In this document: positions 5,489 to 32,041 of the stretch, piece after piece | Layout: every line of letters begins with the position of its first letter | Position numbering within the stretch: the stretch's first letter is position 1 | Virus record (IMG/VR): IMGVR_UViG_3300037852_000073 | Coordinates: 1-47,939 of that record | Direction: 5' to 3' (one strand) | Source: a virus | DNA: 47,939 bases | Translations under genes and position numbers: made by a program | The notes under the pieces: model-generated | What the model saw: only the letters and a program-made list of their open reading frames with translations | What the model was told of the DNA's origin: nothing | Database searches by the model: none

Positions 5489-6186
5489 GTGTTTGTCTGG
5501 TTATGCGGTTGATACTTTGGGAATTCGATAACCCATACCCACAACGAGCCGTCCCACGAGCCGTTGATGCTCGTCCATAGCGATTTGTAAGATTCGACGG
5601 CGCTGAAGAAGCCCGGCCCTCCTGAATAGTCCTTCCATCCCATCGCGCGGCAAGGACCGATGGAAGTCACACGCTCGACGCCTTCATCAACCGCATCCTG
5701 CTCGTTGATGTCGCCGAGCCGTTCCACGCGGATGCCCAGGATGGGGATGTGCCGGAAGCGGGACATCCAGCGCGGCATGAAACGTGCGTGACGATAGCGG
5801 CCCATTTCTTCTCCGCTTCCGTCGGCCAGATAAGTGATGGGGCCGCTATGCGCGGTCAACTTGGAAGGCGGCAAGTAGTCGTAAGCGCCGTTTACCTTCC
5901 AAGCCTCCTTGAAATAGAGTTCCGAGCCGGCAGCGCCGTAGGGGCATTCGCAAAGGCCGTGGCGCGCCGAACCCCCGTCAGGATATGCCCTGTATGTGGC
6001 TACCGCTATCTCTCCCTTGGTTGCGTGCATTTGATATTCAACCCCCAGTTCTGTGGCGGTGTCCATCTGGTGTTTGCCCAGCCTTCTCGTCTGCCCCTTC
6101 CGCCCCTCCATGTACGCCCGGATCATGGGGGCGGACATGCTGATGCCGCGCTCTTTCACTGCTGCTTCAATCGTGCTCATGTTCAT
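5485..6186 (-). CDS. ASCH-like phage protein, 233 aa
   Basis: The conserved blocks of a widespread phage family are visible in order: SAPMIRAYMEGRKGQTRR near residue 20, CPYGAAGSELYFKEAW near 85, FMPRWMSRF near 140, IRVERLGDINEQDAVDEG near 155, and SINGSWDGSLWVWVIEF near the C-terminus. This family is linked to the ASCH/PUA-like RNA-binding fold. The role during infection is unknown. The ATG at 6186 overlaps the upstream TGA, so I reject the longer frame starting at 6204. Confidence 0.85.
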   Translation of the reverse strand: MNMSTIEAAVKERGISMSAPMIRAYMEGRKGQTRRLGKHQMDTATELGVEYQMHATKGEIAVATYRAYPDGGSARHGLCECPYGAAGSELYFKEAWKVNGAYDYLPPSKLTAHSGPITYLADGSGEEMGRYRHARFMPRWMSRFRHIPILGIRVERLGDINEQDAVDEGVERVTSIGPCRAMGWKDYSGGPGFFSAVESYKSLWTSINGSWDGSLWVWVIEFPKYQPHNQTNT

Positions 6187-6452
6187 GCGTTCTGTTCCGC
6201 CCACTGCCGGAAGGCGCTATCATCGACCTGTTGGCCGTTCGCCATGAGCCAAAGTTTCAACTCGGCGTTGTACTGATCCCGCCATCCGGGATGCAGCCTG
6301 TCCCTGTCCTGATGCTGTATGGCGCGCACGGCGATTAAGTGTTCAAGGTCCGTGCCTTCTTCAATCATCTTGGCGATCTCGGCGGCGTGCTCCTTGTGCA
6401 TCGGTGGTTTGGGATGTTCCATAAATTCGGCGTAGGTTTGGAGCGGGTTCAT
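6183..6452 (-). CDS. Hypothetical protein after DnaB, 89 aa
   Basis: The ATG at 6452 shares one base with the DnaB stop (TGATG). The product is helical and acidic at the start (YAEFMEHP, AAEIAKMIEEGTDLEHL), with a conserved-looking HPGWRDQYNAELKLWL segment. No domain is recognised. Tight coupling to the helicase suggests co-expression with replication functions but does not show a replication role. Confidence 0.7.
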   Translation of the reverse strand: MNPLQTYAEFMEHPKPPMHKEHAAEIAKMIEEGTDLEHLIAVRAIQHQDRDRLHPGWRDQYNAELKLWLMANGQQVDDSAFRQWAEQNA

Positions 6453-7780
6453 CAATCCTTGTGCCAGTCGCGTTTGGGTTTGGACGCCGGTTTTTCCTTC
6501 GGCGCTTCCGGGGTGAACTTCTCAAATGAAAACGTCGCGCCGTTGAGCCGGAGCGGAAGGAAATGCCCCTTGCGCCCGTTGCGGTTTTTGACCACCAGCA
6601 GGCCGCGATCACCTTCAATCGAAAGCGCGTTCGATGCATCCTGATTCGGCGCGCGGCTGTCCAGCGTCTTGCCGTCATCGTTGAGCTGCGACAGCATGAG
6701 CACGGCCACGCGGTTCGCGGCGCTGATCTGGCGCTTTGCGAGGCGGGAAATGTAGGCCACCTGTTCAGCCCGGCTCCCGAAAGTCTTTTGCGTGGGCACA
6801 AGCTGAAGGAAGTCGATCACTACCAATCCCACCGGATGCTTGGCGCAGAGAGCCTTCACGTCGGCGTCAATCTGCTCGATGGTCCATGACGGCTCGCAGC
6901 GCAGGTGCATCCCCCATTCGTTCATCTCGGTGATCGCTCGGGTGATGCTCCGGGCGTCCTCCTGTGTCGGCTTATTGTTGCGTGGCCTGAAAACCTTGTC
7001 TGAGTCGATCCCGGAGCGCGCCACCATGAGCCGGTCAAGGCATTCAGTGCGGTCCATCTCATAGGAATACCAGACGGCGTGCTTGCCATGGCAAACAGTG
7101 TCCTCCATGAGATTTTGGGCCAGCGAAGACTTTCCCTCGCTCGGATAGGCCGCCAGCAGCCAGTATGCGGCGGTGATGCCCCCGAATGTGGAGTTGAAGC
7201 AGTCCCAGCGCGTGGGAATCCCGGAATCCACTTCGCCGGTCATGCGTTTCTGCCAGATGTCCAGGTACTCGGAAATGTGGGTCTTGAACGATTTGTGGCC
7301 GCTGGACAGGTCCGGCCTGATGGCGTCGAAGATTTCGCTGCAAATGGCCGCCACGGCTTCGGGCACGTCCTCCTGGTGTTCGTAGCATTTCTGAATCCCG
7401 GTCGTGCAGGCGAGCACTGTGCGCCGCAGAAGCGCCTTGTCGCGGAGAATGCCGATGAAGTAGGGATAATGCGCTGGGGTGGGGTTGAAATTGAGCAGTT
7501 CAGCGAGGATGGCCGGTCCTCCGATCTTGTCAATCGTGGCGCGGTCGATGAACCACTGGCAGAGGGATTGAAGGTTGATAGGGACGCCTGCTTCATTGGC
7601 GGCAAGTATCTCCGTAAAAATCAGCCTGTTTCCAGCGTGGTAAAAATGGTCCGGTGGGACGTGCTTTTTCATGTCGTCACAAAGGGCGATGGGGTTCGAC
7701 AGCAGGCACGAGAGCAGCCCTTGCTCTGCATCCTCGGCGCGCGGCATTCCGCGCAGCATGTCGATTTCAATGGTGTTCAT
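6452..7780 (-). CDS. dnaB: Replicative DNA helicase, DnaB family
   Basis: This 442-aa protein has the DnaB layout. The N-terminal helical domain starts RAEDAEQGLLSCLLSNP and ends near residue 155. A RecA-like domain follows, with Walker A AYPSEGKSS at 211-219, a SYEM motif at 239-242, Walker B VVIDFLQL at 320-327 and LSQLND at 363-368. It is the hexameric 5'-3' helicase that opens the phage replication fork. The start at 7780 overlaps the upstream DUF1376 stop as TGATG; the longer frame to 7927 is rejected because it lies inside that gene. The initiator/loader is immediately upstream. No phage primase or polymerase was found, so host enzymes are presumably recruited. Confidence 0.95.
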   Translation of the reverse strand: MNTIEIDMLRGMPRAEDAEQGLLSCLLSNPIALCDDMKKHVPPDHFYHAGNRLIFTEILAANEAGVPINLQSLCQWFIDRATIDKIGGPAILAELLNFNPTPAHYPYFIGILRDKALLRRTVLACTTGIQKCYEHQEDVPEAVAAICSEIFDAIRPDLSSGHKSFKTHISEYLDIWQKRMTGEVDSGIPTRWDCFNSTFGGITAAYWLLAAYPSEGKSSLAQNLMEDTVCHGKHAVWYSYEMDRTECLDRLMVARSGIDSDKVFRPRNNKPTQEDARSITRAITEMNEWGMHLRCEPSWTIEQIDADVKALCAKHPVGLVVIDFLQLVPTQKTFGSRAEQVAYISRLAKRQISAANRVAVLMLSQLNDDGKTLDSRAPNQDASNALSIEGDRGLLVVKNRNGRKGHFLPLRLNGATFSFEKFTPEAPKEKPASKPKRDWHKD

Positions 7781-20203: not shown

Positions 20204-20361
20204 GCCGCTCCCGTTCCAAAACCGAGGACAGGCTGAACGAGGCGCTGAAGCGCCGCGGTATCTTCTGCGCGAAGGGCGACTGTGTCGCCAAGGGCACAAA
20301 AGGGGTCAACAAGGCGCGCCGGATCGCCCTTCAGTCATGGAAGGAGCAGCGGGAGCCATGA
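20200..20361 (+). CDS. Small basic protein before TerL, 53 aa
   Basis: ATGA overlaps with the regulator upstream and with TerL downstream fix this gene. The product MSRSRSKTEDRLNEALKRRG, then CAKGDCVAKGTKGVNKARRI, is basic with a C-x4-C pair. It could bind DNA and help packaging, but it is much shorter than known small terminases. Function unknown. Confidence 0.7.
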   Translation: MSRSRSKTEDRLNEALKRRGIFCAKGDCVAKGTKGVNKARRIALQSWKEQREP

Positions 20362-22286
20362 GCGCCCCCGCCCAGCCCACGTTTGAAAATCTGCGCGATC
20401 TTTTGTTCGCGAAACAGACGCGTGTGCGCTTCCTGCCTGACACGGACGTGCGCGATTTGGGAGGCGGCAATGTCGAGGTTCTGAAGGTCAAACGCTGGAT
20501 AAAGACCACCATCGCCGGGGCCGTGGAGATGTGGAAGGCGCGGGAAATGGCGCTCAAGCTGGCGATTGAAGACCCGTTCCGAAACGGCCATGAGCCCGAA
20601 GCGTGGGGCGATCTTGACTGGCTGGTGTGCCGCAAGCGCGTGGAGAACCCCGGCATCGTGGTTGAGATTCTTCTGCAAGGAGGCCAGGGAAGCGGCAAGA
20701 GCTACTTTGGCGCGCGGTGCATCAACCGCTTTGGCATCTATAATCCTGGGTGTCTGGTATGGTGCTTCTCCACCGACGAACTCAACAGCAAGTCCGTGAT
20801 GCAGCCTGCGGTATATGCCTATCTGCCGAAGGAACTGCGGACGGCGACCGGCAAGAAGGAGCGCACCAAGAACCAGAAGATCATCTTCACGACTTCCGGC
20901 GGATTCACCGGGAATGTGATGGGCTATCCCAACGGCACCGTGCTGCAATTTCGGTTCCATTCGTCCGAACTCGCCACGCTGGAAGGCCCACGCCCGCATT
21001 TCGTGGTGACCGATGAGAACGTTCCAATCACATGGGTCGAGGCCATCACCGACCGTCTACGCTCCCGCGCCCAGCTTTCGCTTGCCAGCCATGAGGTGTT
21101 CGCGGCATTGCTCGAAAAGAAGCGCGTCAACCCCTCCATGCCATTCCCGCCCGAGCTTGTGTCGGCGCTCTACATGGGAGTGCATCTGGTGATGTTCACG
21201 CCAAAATTTGGGTACACGCCCACGGTGCATTCCTTCATCAAGGATGCCGTCACGCTGAAGGAGGTCGAGGCGGAACTTCTGCCGCTGAAGGATGACGTCG
21301 GGGCGGATGCGGGGTTTGAGAAGGTGCCGCGGCTGATGGACTGCCGTCTGAGCCGCCGCGCCGTGTTCTACATGCATCCCACCGACAACCCACACGCCGG
21401 CAACTATGAATCGTTCGTGGCGGAAAAGGACACCATGACGCGCGAGACGATCCTGTGGAAAGTGTACGGCATCGCCAGCCGCAAATCGAATGTCATGTTC
21501 CCCAAGTTCTCCAGAGCGGCGCATGTGCGCAAGCATGAAGAAGTCATCAAGGCGTGCAAGGAAGGAACGCTGTGGTTGGCGGTCGATCCGGCTCCAGGCC
21601 GAAACATGTTCTGCCTTTGGGCCGTCGTGAACCCGTTGGGTGAAATCTACATTGTCCACGAGTGGCCGCAGGAGGATGACTTCATTCCCGGCATCGGCCA
21701 TCCGGGGCCGTGGGCGGTCGAAGGGCAGCACCTCGACGGCGAGAAAGGCCCGGCGCAGGAGCCCTGGGGCATGGGGTATATAAGGGAGGCCGAGGAAATG
21801 GACCGCATCGAGCGCAAGCTGCATCTGGAGATCAAGGGCGAGGAAGGACGGCTCATCCCCTACATGGAGATCATCGACAGCCGCACGGGCAACACTCCGA
21901 CCGCGACCGACAGCGAGACGCGCACCTTGATCCAGCTTTTCGGGACGCAGGGGCGCAACTTTGATCCGGCGGGCAAGGAGAGCGGGGCGCTGGACGGCAC
22001 GACGCGCGTTGAGGAGTCCACCAAGCTCGTGACGGCCATGCTGGACTACGACTCGGACCGGACCACCATCGACGCGCAGGGCCGCATGAGCTTCCATGGG
22101 AAGGCACCAAGGCTGTTCGTGTCGGAGCGGTGCACAAATCTGATTTTCTCGCTGAGCAACTGGACGAACGCGGACGGGCAGAAGGGCGCGGCAAAAGACC
22201 CCATCGACTGCCTGCGCTATCTCGCAATGTCCGATCCCTTTCACTACCAGCCGCGTGAGGCGCAGGCGTTCGCCGGAGTTTACTAA
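20358..22286 (+). CDS. terL: Terminase large subunit (DNA packaging ATPase/nuclease), 642 aa
   Basis: Walker A GGQGSGKS lies at 108-115 and Walker B VVTDEN at 216-221, giving the packaging motor ATPase. The C-terminal RNase H-like nuclease has its acidic residues at D410 (LAVDPAPG), D507 (MEIIDSRTG) and D614/D617 (KDPIDCLRYL). The enzyme cuts concatemers and pumps DNA into the prohead through the portal. At 642 aa it is longer than usual, with an N-terminal extension of about 90 residues. ATG 20358 is ATGA-coupled to the upstream gene. Confidence 0.93.
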   Translation: MSAPAQPTFENLRDLLFAKQTRVRFLPDTDVRDLGGGNVEVLKVKRWIKTTIAGAVEMWKAREMALKLAIEDPFRNGHEPEAWGDLDWLVCRKRVENPGIVVEILLQGGQGSGKSYFGARCINRFGIYNPGCLVWCFSTDELNSKSVMQPAVYAYLPKELRTATGKKERTKNQKIIFTTSGGFTGNVMGYPNGTVLQFRFHSSELATLEGPRPHFVVTDENVPITWVEAITDRLRSRAQLSLASHEVFAALLEKKRVNPSMPFPPELVSALYMGVHLVMFTPKFGYTPTVHSFIKDAVTLKEVEAELLPLKDDVGADAGFEKVPRLMDCRLSRRAVFYMHPTDNPHAGNYESFVAEKDTMTRETILWKVYGIASRKSNVMFPKFSRAAHVRKHEEVIKACKEGTLWLAVDPAPGRNMFCLWAVVNPLGEIYIVHEWPQEDDFIPGIGHPGPWAVEGQHLDGEKGPAQEPWGMGYIREAEEMDRIERKLHLEIKGEEGRLIPYMEIIDSRTGNTPTATDSETRTLIQLFGTQGRNFDPAGKESGALDGTTRVEESTKLVTAMLDYDSDRTTIDAQGRMSFHGKAPRLFVSERCTNLIFSLSNWTNADGQKGAAKDPIDCLRYLAMSDPFHYQPREAQAFAGVY

Positions 22287-22953: not shown

Positions 22954-24603
22954 ATGACCATTCCGCCCAACACGTTGCAGCACGTCTGCCTTGGCCGCGC
23001 GGGTGACATCGCGCTTTGTCTCCCAGCCCTCAAAAAGTGGGCTGACGAGCATGGCCGTCCCGCCGTCCTCATGACCTCCAGCGAGTTCATGCCCATGCTG
23101 GAGGGATGCTCCTACGTGAAGGGCGTAGAATGGCAGGGCGACTTCAGCCAGCTTGCCGCGTGCCTGGAGTTCCTGAAGAACGACCTGCCGCAGGTGCCGG
23201 TGAAGTGCCTCCAGTTCTACCAGAACGGAGACCGGCAGATGCTGCCGAGCTTCTGGCACGAGCAGATGTACCTGGCCGGGATCTTGGGCGGCGAGGATTT
23301 GCCGCTGGTGTTTGACCGGAGGGATGCGGTGAGGGAGCGTGTTCTTCTTGAAAAGACCTACATCAAAAACTTTGATCCATTGGATGATGTGGTGGATGCG
23401 CATAGGCCGCTTATTCTCGTTTCCCTCAAGGGACACAGTTCGCCATTCAAGGACTCCGAATCGTTTATGGCAGTTCTACGCGCTTCCCTTGGACGGGAAT
23501 GCCTCATCGTGGACTTGTCCGAAATCCGCGCCGAACGAATCTACGACCTCATTGGCCTCTATGACCACGCCGCGGCCCTCATCAGCATCGACACGGTCCA
23601 CCTGCATCTGTCCAAGGCGTCCAAAGTTCCGGTGTTCGCCCTGGCACGCGACTATCCCGACCGCTGGTATGGCACGCCGCAGCTTGAGCGCTTCCACTGG
23701 TACTGCCGCTACGGGCAGGTGATGGAACGCAGTGGGGAACTGATCGAGGCTTTGCGGGATTTATTGTTGAACAAAAAGTCTCCACGTCCGCAGATGCTTC
23801 CCCTTCCCCGTGGGGCCTACAACCCCTCCATCATAGAGCACGACGGAAAGACGCTCATCAGCTACCGCCATCATCCCGACCGCACATGGAGGACACAGCT
23901 TGTGCTCGACGGCCTGCCGGTGAAGTTCCCCTATCCCGTGGCGACGTGCGCGCACGAGGACATGCGGCTTTTCCATTTCAGGGGCGAACTGTGGGCGTCC
24001 TATGTGTGCGCGCGCGGGTTCAAGGATGATCCCCGTTGTGTTGTCGGCTACGGGCAGTTGATCCGGTGCAAGGATTTTTGGGCGGTGAAGGAGCATTTTC
24101 AGCCTGAGATGCCGGGCAATGATTGGAGCGGCCTTGAGAAAAACGCAGTGTGTTTCGAGTTCAATGACGCGGTGAACATGATCTGGCGCAACGGTCATGT
24201 GATCGTGCTTGATGGTTCAAAGGTGATCCACGAGTACATGACCGAACCCGCCACATGGCCCTACGGCGAAATACGCGGCGGCACATCCCCGCTCCCGTAC
24301 AAGGGCAAATTGCTCCGCTTCTTCCACAGCCGCATCTGGGACAGGGAGAACGGCAAGCCATGGCGCTACCACATCGGCGCGCTGGTCATGGAGCCGAACC
24401 CTCCTTTCAATACCATCGCGGTCAGCAAAAAGCCCATCCTGTCCGGCGATGAGTCGGGCGACCCGATGATATGGCACTGGAAAAATAATGTTTGCATTAT
24501 TTACGGTGCGGTGGAAAATGGGCAGGGATGGACACTATCATTAGGTATCAACGATGCTCACTGCGCCCTTCTGGAGGTAAAAGAATCCGATTTGAACCTA
24601 TGA
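22954..24603 (+). CDS. Fusion of a GT9-like glycosyltransferase and a GH130-like beta-propeller, 549 aa
   Basis: Residues 1-270 look like a GT-B/GT9 (heptosyltransferase-type) domain: CLGRAGDIALCLPALKKW at 12-29, LILVSLKGHSSPF, and the sugar-nucleotide region SIDTVHLHLSKASKVPVFAL at 211-230. Residues 285-549 look like a five-bladed propeller of the GH130/GH43 type: YNPSIIEHDGKTLISYR, then HEDMRLFHFRGELWASY, then SGDESGDPMIWHW. I infer a phage enzyme that makes or trims a surface glycan. The two-domain fusion is unusual. The gene is late-operon coupled, ends ...DLNL with TGA, and a diverged copy of its last 18 codons lies at 25535-25592. Confidence 0.65.
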   Translation: MTIPPNTLQHVCLGRAGDIALCLPALKKWADEHGRPAVLMTSSEFMPMLEGCSYVKGVEWQGDFSQLAACLEFLKNDLPQVPVKCLQFYQNGDRQMLPSFWHEQMYLAGILGGEDLPLVFDRRDAVRERVLLEKTYIKNFDPLDDVVDAHRPLILVSLKGHSSPFKDSESFMAVLRASLGRECLIVDLSEIRAERIYDLIGLYDHAAALISIDTVHLHLSKASKVPVFALARDYPDRWYGTPQLERFHWYCRYGQVMERSGELIEALRDLLLNKKSPRPQMLPLPRGAYNPSIIEHDGKTLISYRHHPDRTWRTQLVLDGLPVKFPYPVATCAHEDMRLFHFRGELWASYVCARGFKDDPRCVVGYGQLIRCKDFWAVKEHFQPEMPGNDWSGLEKNAVCFEFNDAVNMIWRNGHVIVLDGSKVIHEYMTEPATWPYGEIRGGTSPLPYKGKLLRFFHSRIWDRENGKPWRYHIGALVMEPNPPFNTIAVSKKPILSGDESGDPMIWHWKNNVCIIYGAVENGQGWTLSLGINDAHCALLEVKESDLNL

Positions 24604-25190
24604 TTAAATGGGGAATCGGCCACATGCATGGCATGGAAAACACTCCGACGTGGATGTCATGGAGGGGAATGGTTCATCGTTGTTATCGTGAAAAGGATCA
24701 CAACTATGCGCAATACGGCGGGCGCGGAATCCGGGTGTGCAGGTATTTGAGGATGTCCCCAATTCACCTTAAGAATATTCTCGGCGAGAGGCCGAAGAAT
24801 ATGTCCATTGATCGAATCAGGAACAAAAGCCACTATTCTTGCGGTGCATGCGCCCAATGCAGAAAAATGGGATGGACACTGAACATCCGATGGGCGACCC
24901 CAAAACAGCAGCAGCAAAACAGAGAGATTTCTATTTTTGTAAAATTCAAGGGGCGAAAAATAGCCTTGAGCGAACTCGCCAGAGAGCATGGCATAAATTA
25001 CGCAACAATCCTGCGTCGGTTTAACAAAAAGGTGAGCGCTGAGAACTTGATTTATAAAGGAAGGATCAGGGAACCCCTGCCAACGACTTGCAAAATCTGC
25101 AATGCGCGTCTCCATCCAAAGCGTCAAGAGCGCTATCGCAATTTTTGCTCGTCAAAGTGCTTCGTAAAATTCTACCGTAAATCCAAATGA
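24600..25190 (+). CDS. HNH-type homing endonuclease with HTH and zinc tail, 196 aa
   Basis: The pattern WMSWRGMVHRCYREKDHNYAQ, YGGRGIRVC, NMSIDRIRNKSHY, WTLNIRWATPKQQQQN is that of the phage HNH/AP2 endonuclease family. A DNA-binding segment follows (FKGRKIALSELAREHGINYA, TILRRFNKKVSAEN) and then a four-cysteine zinc tail (CKIC ... CSSKC). Such enzymes cut alleles that lack them and spread by repair. It is AT-richer than the neighbours and starts in the ATGA slot right behind the glycosyltransferase. It shares its core with the gene at 31365-32006. Confidence 0.8.
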   Translation: MIKWGIGHMHGMENTPTWMSWRGMVHRCYREKDHNYAQYGGRGIRVCRYLRMSPIHLKNILGERPKNMSIDRIRNKSHYSCGACAQCRKMGWTLNIRWATPKQQQQNREISIFVKFKGRKIALSELAREHGINYATILRRFNKKVSAENLIYKGRIREPLPTTCKICNARLHPKRQERYRNFCSSKCFVKFYRKSK

Positions 25191-25543
25191 GACCCACAGA
25201 CGAAGAGGAAAGACTGCACCGCGAATCATTTCTAAGGCTGAAGCCGTTCGCCCTGTTGGGAAGAGGCTTTTTCCTAGACATGATCTTCGCCATGCAAAGA
25301 ACGTCCATCGAAGACCTTGAAAAGCTAAAGGGGGACTTCGAGCACTTCAGAAAGTACAATCAATTTCCCGATGTGTGCGATGCCGCAGGATCATCGGTAG
25401 AAAATTGGGGCACTGCGATTGCTATTCGGTGGATGGAAAAGGCGCGACTAGACATTCATATTGAAGTTCGCCGCGAGCGCGAGAAAAGAAAACTCTTGGA
25501 AACGGACAACTGCGGTTTCACCAAAGACCCAACCTATCAATGA
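25187..25543 (+). CDS. Hypothetical protein travelling with the HNH gene, 118 aa
   Basis: It is ATGA-coupled to the endonuclease. The product is helical and charged: EEERLHRESFLRLKPFALLG, then RTSIEDLEKLKGDFEHFRKY, then AIRWMEKARLDIHIEVRRER. Its last codons (ACC TAT CAA TGA) run into the duplicated glycosyltransferase tail, so it appears to belong to the same inserted segment. No family is recognised. Confidence 0.6.
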   Translation: MRPTDEEERLHRESFLRLKPFALLGRGFFLDMIFAMQRTSIEDLEKLKGDFEHFRKYNQFPDVCDAAGSSVENWGTAIAIRWMEKARLDIHIEVRREREKRKLLETDNCGFTKDPTYQ

Positions 25544-25592
25544 CGCGCACAGTGCGCTGCTGCATGTGAAGGAGGAGGATTTGAATTTATGA
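25535..25592 (+). repeat. Diverged second copy of the 3' end of the GT9-like gene
   Basis: In the glycosyltransferase frame this reads INDAHSALLHVKEEDLNL and stop, against INDAHCALLEVKESDLNL at 24548-24603: 15 of 18 residues are the same. About 40 of 57 bases match, with differences mostly at third codon positions. It is a tail remnant of a related gene and also supplies the AGGAGGAGG ribosome-binding site for the next gene. Confidence 0.85.
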
Positions 25593-25750
25593 AGGATGTT
25601 CTTTCCGCACTAATGCCTGTGTTGGTCATCATCGCGTTAGGATTTGTCCTTACACTCTTTCTCGACATTGTGCGAATTTCCCTTGTTGAGGTTTGCCAAG
25701 CCGCCATTCGTGAAACAGTGAAGCCTGAATATCTGATTCAAAAACCATGA
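25589..25750 (+). CDS. Small membrane protein, 53 aa
   Basis: ATG 25589 overlaps the stop of the remnant tail as ATGA and follows a strong AGGAGGAGG tract. The product MKDVLSALMPVLVIIALGF, VLTLFLDIVRISLVEV has one membrane helix and an amphipathic tail. It was probably the original downstream neighbour of the glycosyltransferase. Confidence 0.65.
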   Translation: MKDVLSALMPVLVIIALGFVLTLFLDIVRISLVEVCQAAIRETVKPEYLIQKP

Positions 25751-29149: not shown

Positions 29150-31405
29150 ATGGACCCATACCCGGAAGACTCCCAGCTTGCGCTTCTCTCGCCATCGACC
29201 AAGCCGGACTGTCAGGAGCTTCTCACGGACCTTCGGTTTGCCCTGAACCGCGCGGCCAATTTCCAGTTGTGGGACCGCATGGAGTTCTGCCACAACGCGC
29301 GCTACGTCGATTTTCCCGGCCACAACCGCTTTACCTGCCGCAAGGGGCTCGCGCCAGGAACCCGTCCTTGGGGAGGAGCGGCTGACCTTGAAGTCCGCTT
29401 GGTGGACCAGATCATCAAGGAGAACTCCGACATCTGCGTCCTTGCGGCGAACCGCGCCCAGCCGCACGTCATGCCCGCCGACCTCGAGGCCGACGATGAT
29501 GACCGGATGAACATGGCCGACCTCTGGGGCGGCGTGCTGGAGCACTACCGGGAATACAACGAGTACAACATGCAGCGCGCCCTGACCGAGCTTTGCGGCA
29601 TCGGGCAGGAGTACGGCCACGGCATCATGTTCGTCGGCTGGCACGAGGAAAAGCGGCTGGTGAAAAAGACGCTCGATGCCGGCGAAGTCAACCAGCTTCT
29701 GGCCCATGCCTTCATCAACCCCGACGCCGATGCTCCCGACATCCGGGACTACATCGCCAGCCTGATTGAAAAGATCGATCCGGAGATCCTTCCTACTGAG
29801 GCCAGGCGCGTGGCAGGCAGGCTCAAGACCGGCGAGCCCTGTGACTACTCCGTGCCGATCACGGTGCGCGCCACGCCCGACTGGCGGGCCAAGACACCGG
29901 GCCTGGACATCTTCTACCCGCCGGAGACCGTCACGATTCAGGAGGCACAGTTCGTGGTGGAGACCGAATGGCTCAGCGATACGCAGATGCGGGGGAACGT
30001 CGTGACCTGGAAGGAATGGGACAAGAAGGCGGTGGAGGCGGTGATCAAGAACTGCCGTCCCGGACGCGCCGCATTCTTCGCCGGGCTGACTACCGGCGTG
30101 ACTTCGGCGAGCGCGTTCACCTGGCAGCTTACCAGTGGCATGATCGGCCTTTCCATCGGCCTTGGCGACCTGACCGGCGAGCAGGCCATGCGCCAGTGGC
30201 AGATCATCGTGGTGCGCTACAAGGCCATCGATCCGAAGACCGGCGTGCCCGTCCTCTACGAGACCACCTTTCACCCTGATCTTCCCGACCAGCCGCTGTC
30301 GCACAAGTGGAGCGTGGACGAGCACGCCCAATATCCTTATGTGGAATACAAGCGCGAGATGACCCAGCCGACGCTCTGGAGCAGCCGGGGCATCGGGGAA
30401 CTGTCCTACTCCGAGCAGGAGGAAATCCGGGCGCAGCGCAACTTCTGCTTCGACAACGCGAACATCGCGATCATGCCGCCCTACCAGACCTCGCCGCGCT
30501 CCACCGTGGCCAACGACGGGTTGCGGCCCGGCATGCGCATCGACGCCATCGCGGGCCAGCCCAACGCCGTGGGCGTGATCAACGTGGCTGGTGATTCCGC
30601 CCCTTCCATCGAAGTCCAGAAAATCGCGTGGAACAGCGCCAAGGACTACCACAAGCAGGGCATGAGCGAGGACATGGACCCGGTGGCCAAGCAGACGGCG
30701 CAGCAGAACGTGGTGAGCGCGTTCATCCTGTCCTTGAAACAGGCGTACAAGCTGACCTTTGCCGTCATCCAACAGTTCGCGCCCGACGAAATCCGCTACT
30801 CCTGCCTCAACGGCATGCCGGTCGATGTGCGGGTGTCGCGCGAGGAAATCCTTGGGCAGTTCAAGGTTTACCTCGAATTCGACGTGGCGGACATTGATCC
30901 GAAGTCCATCGAGATGCGCGGCAAGATGGTGGGCGAGATCATCCAGCCGCTGGACAACGCGGGCCTTCTGGACTCCTACGGCATGTTGAAACTCCTGCTT
31001 ATGTCGATCTCCCCTACATGGGGACGCCAGATGCTGAAGAAGCCACAACAGGCCCAGCAGGACGAAATAAGTGAGGCGGTGATGAACCTGATCAAGAACC
31101 TCAATGGGGTCGAAACGCAGTACCGGCAGAAGGGCGGCGATCCGAACACCCGGTTGCAGACCATGCAGCAGATTCTTTCGATGCCCGCGATTGGAACGGA
31201 CGGAAAACCAATGCTCAATCCTGAGACGGGCCAGCCGATGCCGGGACGTGCGGCGCAGATTTACCAGAGTGATCCGGCGGCGGCCGCGCTTGTGCAGCGC
31301 ACCATGATGAATGAAAAATTTCTGCTCGACCAACAAAACAACGCGAATGTTGGCAAGGTCGGGGTTAAGCAAGCCGAGCAAACTTCTTCTCCGGGGGCGT
31401 CATAA
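29150..31405 (+). CDS. Portal protein, 751 aa
   Basis: Size, position after TerL and before scaffold and capsid, and the sequence support a portal of the long podovirus type. Seen are an N-terminal FCHNARYVDFPGHN region, RPWGGAADLEVRLVDQIIKE, the stem-region-like ELSYSEQEEIRAQRNFCFDN, AIAGQPNAVGVINV, a QQNVVSAFILSLKQAYKLTF helix and a Gln/Asn-rich C-terminal tail. It forms the dodecameric ring for DNA entry and exit. Its last 14 codons overlap antisense with the HNH gene at 31365-32006, so its native C-terminus has probably been altered. Confidence 0.85.
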   Translation: MDPYPEDSQLALLSPSTKPDCQELLTDLRFALNRAANFQLWDRMEFCHNARYVDFPGHNRFTCRKGLAPGTRPWGGAADLEVRLVDQIIKENSDICVLAANRAQPHVMPADLEADDDDRMNMADLWGGVLEHYREYNEYNMQRALTELCGIGQEYGHGIMFVGWHEEKRLVKKTLDAGEVNQLLAHAFINPDADAPDIRDYIASLIEKIDPEILPTEARRVAGRLKTGEPCDYSVPITVRATPDWRAKTPGLDIFYPPETVTIQEAQFVVETEWLSDTQMRGNVVTWKEWDKKAVEAVIKNCRPGRAAFFAGLTTGVTSASAFTWQLTSGMIGLSIGLGDLTGEQAMRQWQIIVVRYKAIDPKTGVPVLYETTFHPDLPDQPLSHKWSVDEHAQYPYVEYKREMTQPTLWSSRGIGELSYSEQEEIRAQRNFCFDNANIAIMPPYQTSPRSTVANDGLRPGMRIDAIAGQPNAVGVINVAGDSAPSIEVQKIAWNSAKDYHKQGMSEDMDPVAKQTAQQNVVSAFILSLKQAYKLTFAVIQQFAPDEIRYSCLNGMPVDVRVSREEILGQFKVYLEFDVADIDPKSIEMRGKMVGEIIQPLDNAGLLDSYGMLKLLLMSISPTWGRQMLKKPQQAQQDEISEAVMNLIKNLNGVETQYRQKGGDPNTRLQTMQQILSMPAIGTDGKPMLNPETGQPMPGRAAQIYQSDPAAAALVQRTMMNEKFLLDQQNNANVGKVGVKQAEQTSSPGAS

Positions 31406-32006
31406 ACGCCGATTCCGAATCCCATCCGCTGTTAATTCTTCTCAGCACGAGACCATAGCGAAGTGAAAGTTCGCGGCACCATTCAGCCACCGTTTTTCGT
31501 TGCCCTCTAAATTCAACAAAATGGCTGCTCTTTCGATTGTTAGACTGCTCGCGCATCGTTGCCCACCTACAATTGCCGGGTTCATAGTTGCCCTTGTTGT
31601 CAGGATATCGGTCAAGACTGTGCGCTCGTGTTGGACGCTTCCCCATGTCGGCAAGAAAGTTTTCGAACGAATCCCATCGTTTGCAGACCGTGATGCCGCG
31701 TCCTCCCCATCGAGGAAAATCTTTGTTATCTGGTGTGAGACACCTTGCCCGCATTGCAGACCAACTCCGATATTCAGGACTTCCCGTGAGATTGTGCTTT
31801 GTGTGGCTCCTCACATGCTCCATGGCGTGATCCACATTCAGACACCCGCATGATTTTGTTCCGCCGCTTACTAGAACACCAGACGGGAGTTCTTTCTCCG
31901 TGCCACAATCACATTTGCATAGCCAAACTCTGTTTTTTCGAATACTCTTTCCTGCGTATCGAATTGCCACGAGCCGACCAAATCTTCTATTTTCCAAGTG
32001 CAACAT
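31365..32006 (-). CDS. HNH/AP2-type homing endonuclease, antisense in the late operon, 213 aa
   Basis: The N-terminus has a zinc motif (CKCDCGTEKELP, SCGCL). The endonuclease core follows: YRSWSAMRARCL, RWGGRGITVCKRWDSFENFL, ADMGKRPTRAHSLDRY, NCRWATMREQSNNR. A C-terminal HTH (FRGQRKTVAEWCRELSLR, then LRRINSGWDSESAF) is like those linked to phage homing enzymes. It is AT-rich and on the opposite strand from all neighbours, with its own promoter. Its 3' end overlaps the portal gene by 41 bases. Confidence 0.82.
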   Translation of the reverse strand: MLHLENRRFGRLVAIRYAGKSIRKNRVWLCKCDCGTEKELPSGVLVSGGTKSCGCLNVDHAMEHVRSHTKHNLTGSPEYRSWSAMRARCLTPDNKDFPRWGGRGITVCKRWDSFENFLADMGKRPTRAHSLDRYPDNKGNYEPGNCRWATMREQSNNRKSSHFVEFRGQRKTVAEWCRELSLRYGLVLRRINSGWDSESAFMTPPEKKFARLA

Positions 32007-32013
32007 GGATAAA

Positions 32014-32041
32014 ATAGTAAACAACCAATCTGGTAAGTCAA
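32014..32041 (-). promoter_or_regulatory. Promoter of the antisense HNH gene
   Basis: The -35 is TTGACT (32041-32036) and the -10 is TACTAT (32019-32014), with a 16-bp spacer. ATG 32006 follows the -10 after 7 nt, so the message would be leaderless. Confidence 0.55.

Follow-up and report, generated by a model that had tools for sequence, protein, structure and literature searches.

Genes and features at the locus

We analysed a stretch of viral DNA of 47,939 nucleotides (hereafter the window), taken from a metagenomic viral contig. Within a glycan-gene cluster with several glycosyltransferases, the end of one gene is present twice, and the two copies flank an HNH gene and a 118-aa ORF. The features are listed below.

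22954..24603, + strand: host gene for the module, now ending in tail copy 1
24546..24551, + strand: TATCAA, left start of the similarity between the copies and counterpart of the right junction
24547..24603, + strand: tail copy 1, in frame with the host gene; encodes INDAHCALLEVKESDLNL and a stop
24600..25190, + strand: free-standing HNH endonuclease gene whose start lies in the ATGA of copy 1; phrog_3377, E 7.4e-30
25187..25543, + strand: 118-aa orphan ORF, coupled to the HNH gene by ATGA
25535..25540, + strand: TATCAA, right junction, probable join point and microhomology
25536..25592, + strand: tail copy 2, with no gene body upstream; encodes INDAHSALLHVKEEDLNL and a stop
25569..25578, + strand: AAGGAGGAGG, Shine-Dalgarno-like, inside copy 2, read from the sequence as serving the membrane gene start at 25589
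25589..25750, + strand: small membrane protein gene, 53 aa, starting at the ATGA of copy 2

By its sequence, the host gene appears to be a fusion of a GT9-like domain with a C-terminal GH130-like propeller. The original prediction had called the gene GT9-like; this label stays with the N-terminal half, which had no match in Pfam, while the C-terminal half was identified as a GH130-like propeller by profile. The propeller family profile (A4) matched the Lin0857 structure (E 7.6e-10) and a beta-1,2-mannobiose phosphorylase structure (E 8.1e-9). The single host sequence matched the propeller weakly (E 0.046), but this match extends to residue 545 of 551, which means that the tail is part of the fold. 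Both copies encode the last strand of the protein. Full-length homologues of the host gene are present at two loci, L127 and L119. There, as in the window, the GT9-like part and the propeller are fused; in L133, L102, L124 and L136 they are separate matches, with a separate start for the propeller ORF.

The third-position GC content of the host gene drops from 0.77 to 0.41 at 24481 (0 of 500 shuffles). The same sharp drop, over roughly the final 40 codons of this gene (24481-24603 in the window), is seen in the relatives L148, L152 and L158. We considered the step as the edge of a co-conversion tract or a mark of foreign origin and dropped the idea: since these relatives have it with no HNH gene there, it is no evidence either way.

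The HNH gene and its neighbours

The HNH gene lies outside any intron or intein, as an ORF of its own between genes, and the host gene retains a complete tail. The core residues D71, R72, N95, R97-T100, Q104 and N107 are intact (alignment A5), and G62, R64, P65, D71, R72, N95, R97, W98, A99, T100, Q104 and N107 are invariant over eight HNH proteins. The core is followed by a helix-turn-helix-like stretch and then by a C-terminal four-cysteine motif. The N-terminal zinc-ribbon-like part of most homologues is absent from the window protein (P0002). We regard the product as a putative homing nuclease, for which cutting and homing are predicted.

The genes are tightly joined. ATGA overlaps connect the host gene with the HNH gene (24600), the HNH gene with the 118-aa ORF (25187) and copy 2 with the membrane gene (25589), and the last codons and the stop of the 118-aa ORF fall in the first bases of copy 2. 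The 118-aa ORF had no family in Pfam, PHROGs or PADLOC, and PADLOC gave no match for the HNH, 118-aa and membrane proteins. It is possible that the 118-aa ORF falls outside the module. The membrane gene is the probable native downstream neighbour of the host gene, with a positional counterpart in L148.

The window has a second HNH gene on the minus strand (31365-32024), a 219-aa ORF with a CxC...CG N-terminal part. It lies antisense between a portal-like gene and the next gene and covers the last 41 bases of the portal gene. No duplicated gene end was found at this second site.

Two diverged copies of one gene end

The two tails are identical in 15 of 18 amino acids and 40 of 57 nucleotides. 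With copy 1 as the query, copy 2 scored 73, and the next best matches in the window scored 22 on the plus strand and 26 on the minus strand. A profile built from the tails of relatives gave the copies 44.8 and 37.4, the next best score in the window being 20.0. The shared DNA starts at TATCAA, one base before the codon-aligned copies, and stops with ATGA; outside this stretch no homology was recognisable. Read upstream in its own frame, copy 2 has 28 open codons before a stop is reached, and the gene body is absent.

The 17 base differences are distributed 4/1/12 over the three codon positions (third-position excess P=0.0019). Ten codon differences are synonymous and three non-synonymous, and the Nei-Gojobori estimates are pS=1.0 and pN=0.13. 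From this pattern it follows that the tails diverged as coding sequence: both were coding while diverging, and their synonymous sites are saturated. The original prediction had described an in-frame repeat of the tail at nearly these positions, mostly third-position changes acquired by coding sequence, an ATGA at the end of each copy (24600 and 25589) and AT-richer genes in between. Each of these points held, the last one with a GC content of 46.7% for the HNH gene and 48.7% for the 118-aa ORF against 58.1% for the window.

Relatives of the host gene have a single tail

Relatives of the host gene were recovered with a degenerate RGGT...FFHS pattern, the nearest ones with an alignment-based scan and a Verrucomicrobiales MAG with a bacterial scan. 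The family comparison consists of 15 relatives, namely the 14 nearest viral loci and the one MAG locus, which are 35-46% identical. No match came from exact 8-mer scans of viral_contigs (queries P0001, P0002, P0003 and the terminase), nor from searching isolated phages for the host gene as DNA and as protein. A DNA pattern search with the tail peptide was discarded, as it returned chance matches only.

All 15 relatives have one tail each, and most tail stops overlap the next start as ATGA or GTGA. On the examined flanks of the relatives, the tail profile detected no second tail, and there were no tandem paralogues or second propeller genes. An HNH gene is absent from the tail junction in 14 of 15 relatives. 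The nearest one, L148 (46% identical), has no HNH there; its tail leads by ATGA to a 65-residue protein with one hydrophobic span and then to a methyltransferase, an order that resembles the window from 25589 on. The exception is L159, where a different HNH gene starts at the same ATGA as in the window, with no second tail. L148 looks like the uninterrupted site and L159 like a donor-type layout. For the window itself, the empty site is seen by analogy with the family, in which we found no relative above 46% host-protein identity.

The original prediction expected relatives without the module to show the tail followed by the membrane gene. At the family level this is what we found, with single tails throughout and the small membrane protein of L148. 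Two findings that it had named as contrary did not appear: no relative has the tail in an unrelated gene, and the HNH relatives located elsewhere are distant (41% or less) and have no tail copy.

The contig with L159, which also holds L136, has two different HNH genes (5834-6298 and 6890-7387) near each other in the operon, at gene junctions, one of them at the ATGA of the propeller gene.

The same layout in Obolenskvirus

At 18 other HNH sites, from 15 phage records and the contigs of two relatives, we looked behind the HNH gene for a repeat of the upstream gene's final 18 codons. The comparison was ungapped over 18 residues, so that other layouts would escape it. One site of 18 was clearly positive, that of Acinetobacter phage Ab31 (score 49, null maximum 22). 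Most HNH nucleases of the surveyed kind leave no second tail.

In Ab31, the head-morphogenesis gene ends with SKIGCKCRKYLIIDIPETI and a stop, followed by the HNH gene and directly by NCRCRAKLIIEIPDSMT and a stop. The arrangement of swapped tail, HNH gene and second tail is carried by AP22, Ab31 and IME-Ap7, members of Obolenskvirus, a group of Acinetobacter phages that is well sampled. The HNH-free genomes of WCHABP1, SR, LZ35 and HZY2308 have one tail, which is of the second kind (NCHCRAKLIIEIPDSMV and a stop in WCHABP1). Accordingly, copy 2 of Ab31 matches WCHABP1 at 87.5% identity over 48 nt, and copy 2 of AP22 matches WCHABP1/LZ35 at about 90% over 24-26 nt; for copy 2 of IME-Ap7 the closest sequence is that of P1068 (86% over 36 nt). 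Among the three carriers, the block of copy 1 and HNH is 99.3%, 95.8% and 96.1% identical, compared with 92-93% for the gene bodies and 77-81% for the second tails. Compared with the other carriers, WCHABP1, which is HNH-free, is the closer match to the gene body of Ab31 (96.9%). Tails of the first kind are also found with no HNH gene, in AB1 and Highwayman. In AP22 and Ab31 the join supplies the end of the HNH stop codon, just as the 118-aa ORF of the window has its stop completed in copy 2.

Since the block is more alike than its flanks and copy 2 matches the HNH-free genomes, the comparison indicates that in Obolenskvirus the nuclease takes the upstream tail along when it moves, and that the second tail is the recipient's own. 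The block has probably entered different Obolenskvirus backgrounds. Here the downstream copy is the native end and the upstream one is not; the relatives of the window gene are too distant (35-46%) for the same comparison.

Other features of these genomes were also noted. In Ab31 (L171, 2040-2130) the head gene goes out of frame at the start of the swapped tail and is annotated as two ORFs, whereas it is open in AP22 and IME-Ap7; the break is either a sequencing error or a real lesion. Several C-terminal alleles of the head protein follow a common WLHS motif in the HNH-free phages Scipio (L190), Highwayman (L192) and WCHABP1 (L186), and this variety suggests repeated replacement of the gene end. 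The Pseudomonas phages VB_EV13 (L168) and D3 (L169) have a DksA-like gene before the HNH gene, and its tail shows a weak resemblance to EMRGIRGLAKYFEDLNGR, which lies 202 bases beyond the HNH gene. The second-tail scores were 27 and 31 against null maxima of 24, from one shared stretch, and we read the resemblance, weakly, as either chance or another old copy.

How the second tail could have arisen

We propose, with a probability of roughly 0.74, that 24547-25534 is a free-standing HNH homing-endonuclease module which arrived through one-sided homologous repair completed by a microhomology join. The donor would have been a relative phage that already had the nuclease gene directly behind the same gene. 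A break near the end of the glycan-enzyme gene of the recipient would have been repaired on the left side by homology with the donor gene, so that the donor gene end and the nuclease were copied. On the right side, the copied strand would have been joined by the TATCAA microhomology inside the recipient's own gene end. This would leave a host gene with a borrowed, working 3' end, followed by the ATGA-coupled nuclease and 118-aa ORF. The old 3' end of the recipient would lie outside any gene, but the membrane gene would continue to draw its ribosome-binding sequence and ATGA start from it. Such a repair should give the anatomy common to the window and Obolenskvirus, in which the left side is homologous and the right side breaks off abruptly within the gene end, at a short word present in both copies; the join point presumably marks the cut site. 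By analogy with Obolenskvirus, copy 1 would be the tail brought with the nuclease and copy 2 the displaced tail of the recipient.

The original prediction, a homing module that brought its own 3' end and displaced the original tail, is thus supported in its outcome by the single tails of the family and the polarity in Obolenskvirus. A special design for carrying a tail need not be assumed. If the nuclease of the donor lies immediately downstream of the gene, as in L159, the gene end is handed over with it, and one-sided repair is the simplest route.

Four other explanations were weighed. The two tails could be what is left of tandem paralogues, the nuclease and the 118-aa ORF having replaced all but the last 18 codons of a second glycan gene. 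Paralogues would also give 15 of 18 identical residues with saturated synonymous sites, and the region is a cluster of glycan genes. However, the relatives have one tail each and no second propeller gene on their examined flanks, only the last 57 nt of the supposed second gene would be left, beginning exactly at a 6-nt shared word, and Obolenskvirus shows the other route in a single-copy gene. We therefore consider this origin unlikely. It is slightly less likely still that ordinary illegitimate recombination produced the two tails, with the HNH gene as a passenger and no nuclease-driven homing. Phage genomes are mosaic, the cutting by the HNH protein is predicted, and P0002 is without the N-terminal part of its homologues; yet its core residues are intact, both independent systems have a nuclease gene between their tails, and L159 has a different HNH gene at the same junction. 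A passenger also fits poorly with the Obolenskvirus tail-HNH block being more alike than its flanks.

A local duplication of the tail, by slippage or through duplication of the target site during insertion, with the copies diverging afterwards where they lie, would fit copies that are short and adjoin the insertion. It is contradicted by the codon-position pattern, because both copies were coding while diverging: copy 2 would have been non-coding after the duplication, yet the differences are nearly all synonymous and the synonymous sites saturated. This makes it very improbable. Lowest of all we place an assembly chimera of two metagenome strains, for which the metagenomic origin of the contig speaks. 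With about 70% identity and only short exact words in common, the copies are too dissimilar for an assembler to cross from one strain to the other, and isolate genomes of Obolenskvirus have the same layout.

Comparison with known systems

In fungal mitochondria, mobile endonuclease ORFs arrive with a new C-terminal gene end, so that the previous end is displaced (Allomyces atp6; Glomus atp6, atp9, cox2 and nad3; PMC3630166), the gene ends having 64-81% DNA identity and near-identical protein (PMC3630166). Like these, the window has a nuclease behind what appears to be an inserted, diverged and working end, with the presumably native end downstream and a tail identity of 70%. The fungal enzymes are LAGLIDADG or GIY-YIG and mitochondrial, whereas that of the window is an HNH protein from a dsDNA phage whose genes here are ATGA-coupled; unlike in fungi, the displaced end carries the start signals of the next gene. 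Judging from the sequences, the window module works like the fungal C-terminus-carrying ORFs and belongs to another enzyme family.

The nuclease gene also resembles free-standing homing endonucleases of phages (T4 seg/mob, Skunavirus HNH, F-CphI) in its packed operon, its patchy presence and its overlap with the upstream gene, for which nrdA/mobE is an example (PMC2988022). One-sided (illegitimate) double-strand-break repair with microhomology joins is documented for T4 intron homing (PMC2988022). It has homology on one side and a microhomology join on the other, as proposed for the window, but was seen in laboratory assays of a group I intron, whereas the window would be a natural fossil of a free-standing nuclease. 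In HEG islands, nuclease genes lie at the boundaries of genetic exchange (PMC10448857). The window nuclease likewise marks the edge of exchanged DNA, but here the exchange is a short gene end of which both versions are kept in one genome. In the literature searched (including PMC2988022, PMC12724721 and PMC10448857, with most subscription journals outside its scope), we found no phage precedent for a carried replacement 3' end with the old end left behind.

Implications

The tail-plus-nuclease layout occurs in two unrelated phage groups and behind two unrelated host genes. Whether free-standing homing nucleases of phages recurrently move as such modules, exchanging the 3' end of the gene upstream of the insertion, is in our view an even bet. 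If so, the gene and the operon coupling would stay intact, the working gene might lose its cut site, and foreign C-terminal alleles of structural and glycan genes would spread. The module would explain how a nuclease with neither intron nor intein settles in a packed, translationally coupled operon with its target gene unharmed, and the scar would give the polarity of the transfer and a predicted cut site. If this is common, selfish nucleases would rewrite the C-terminal ends of phage proteins, as the mobile ORFs do in fungal mitochondria. Obolenskvirus is a directly testable system, with isolated phages that include HNH carriers and HNH-free sisters.

The terminase and portal genes of the window (20337-22286 and 29150-31405) have relatives only about 21-27% identical in the collections searched (phage C75C1; for the terminase also viral contigs), and this low identity points to a little-sampled phage lineage.
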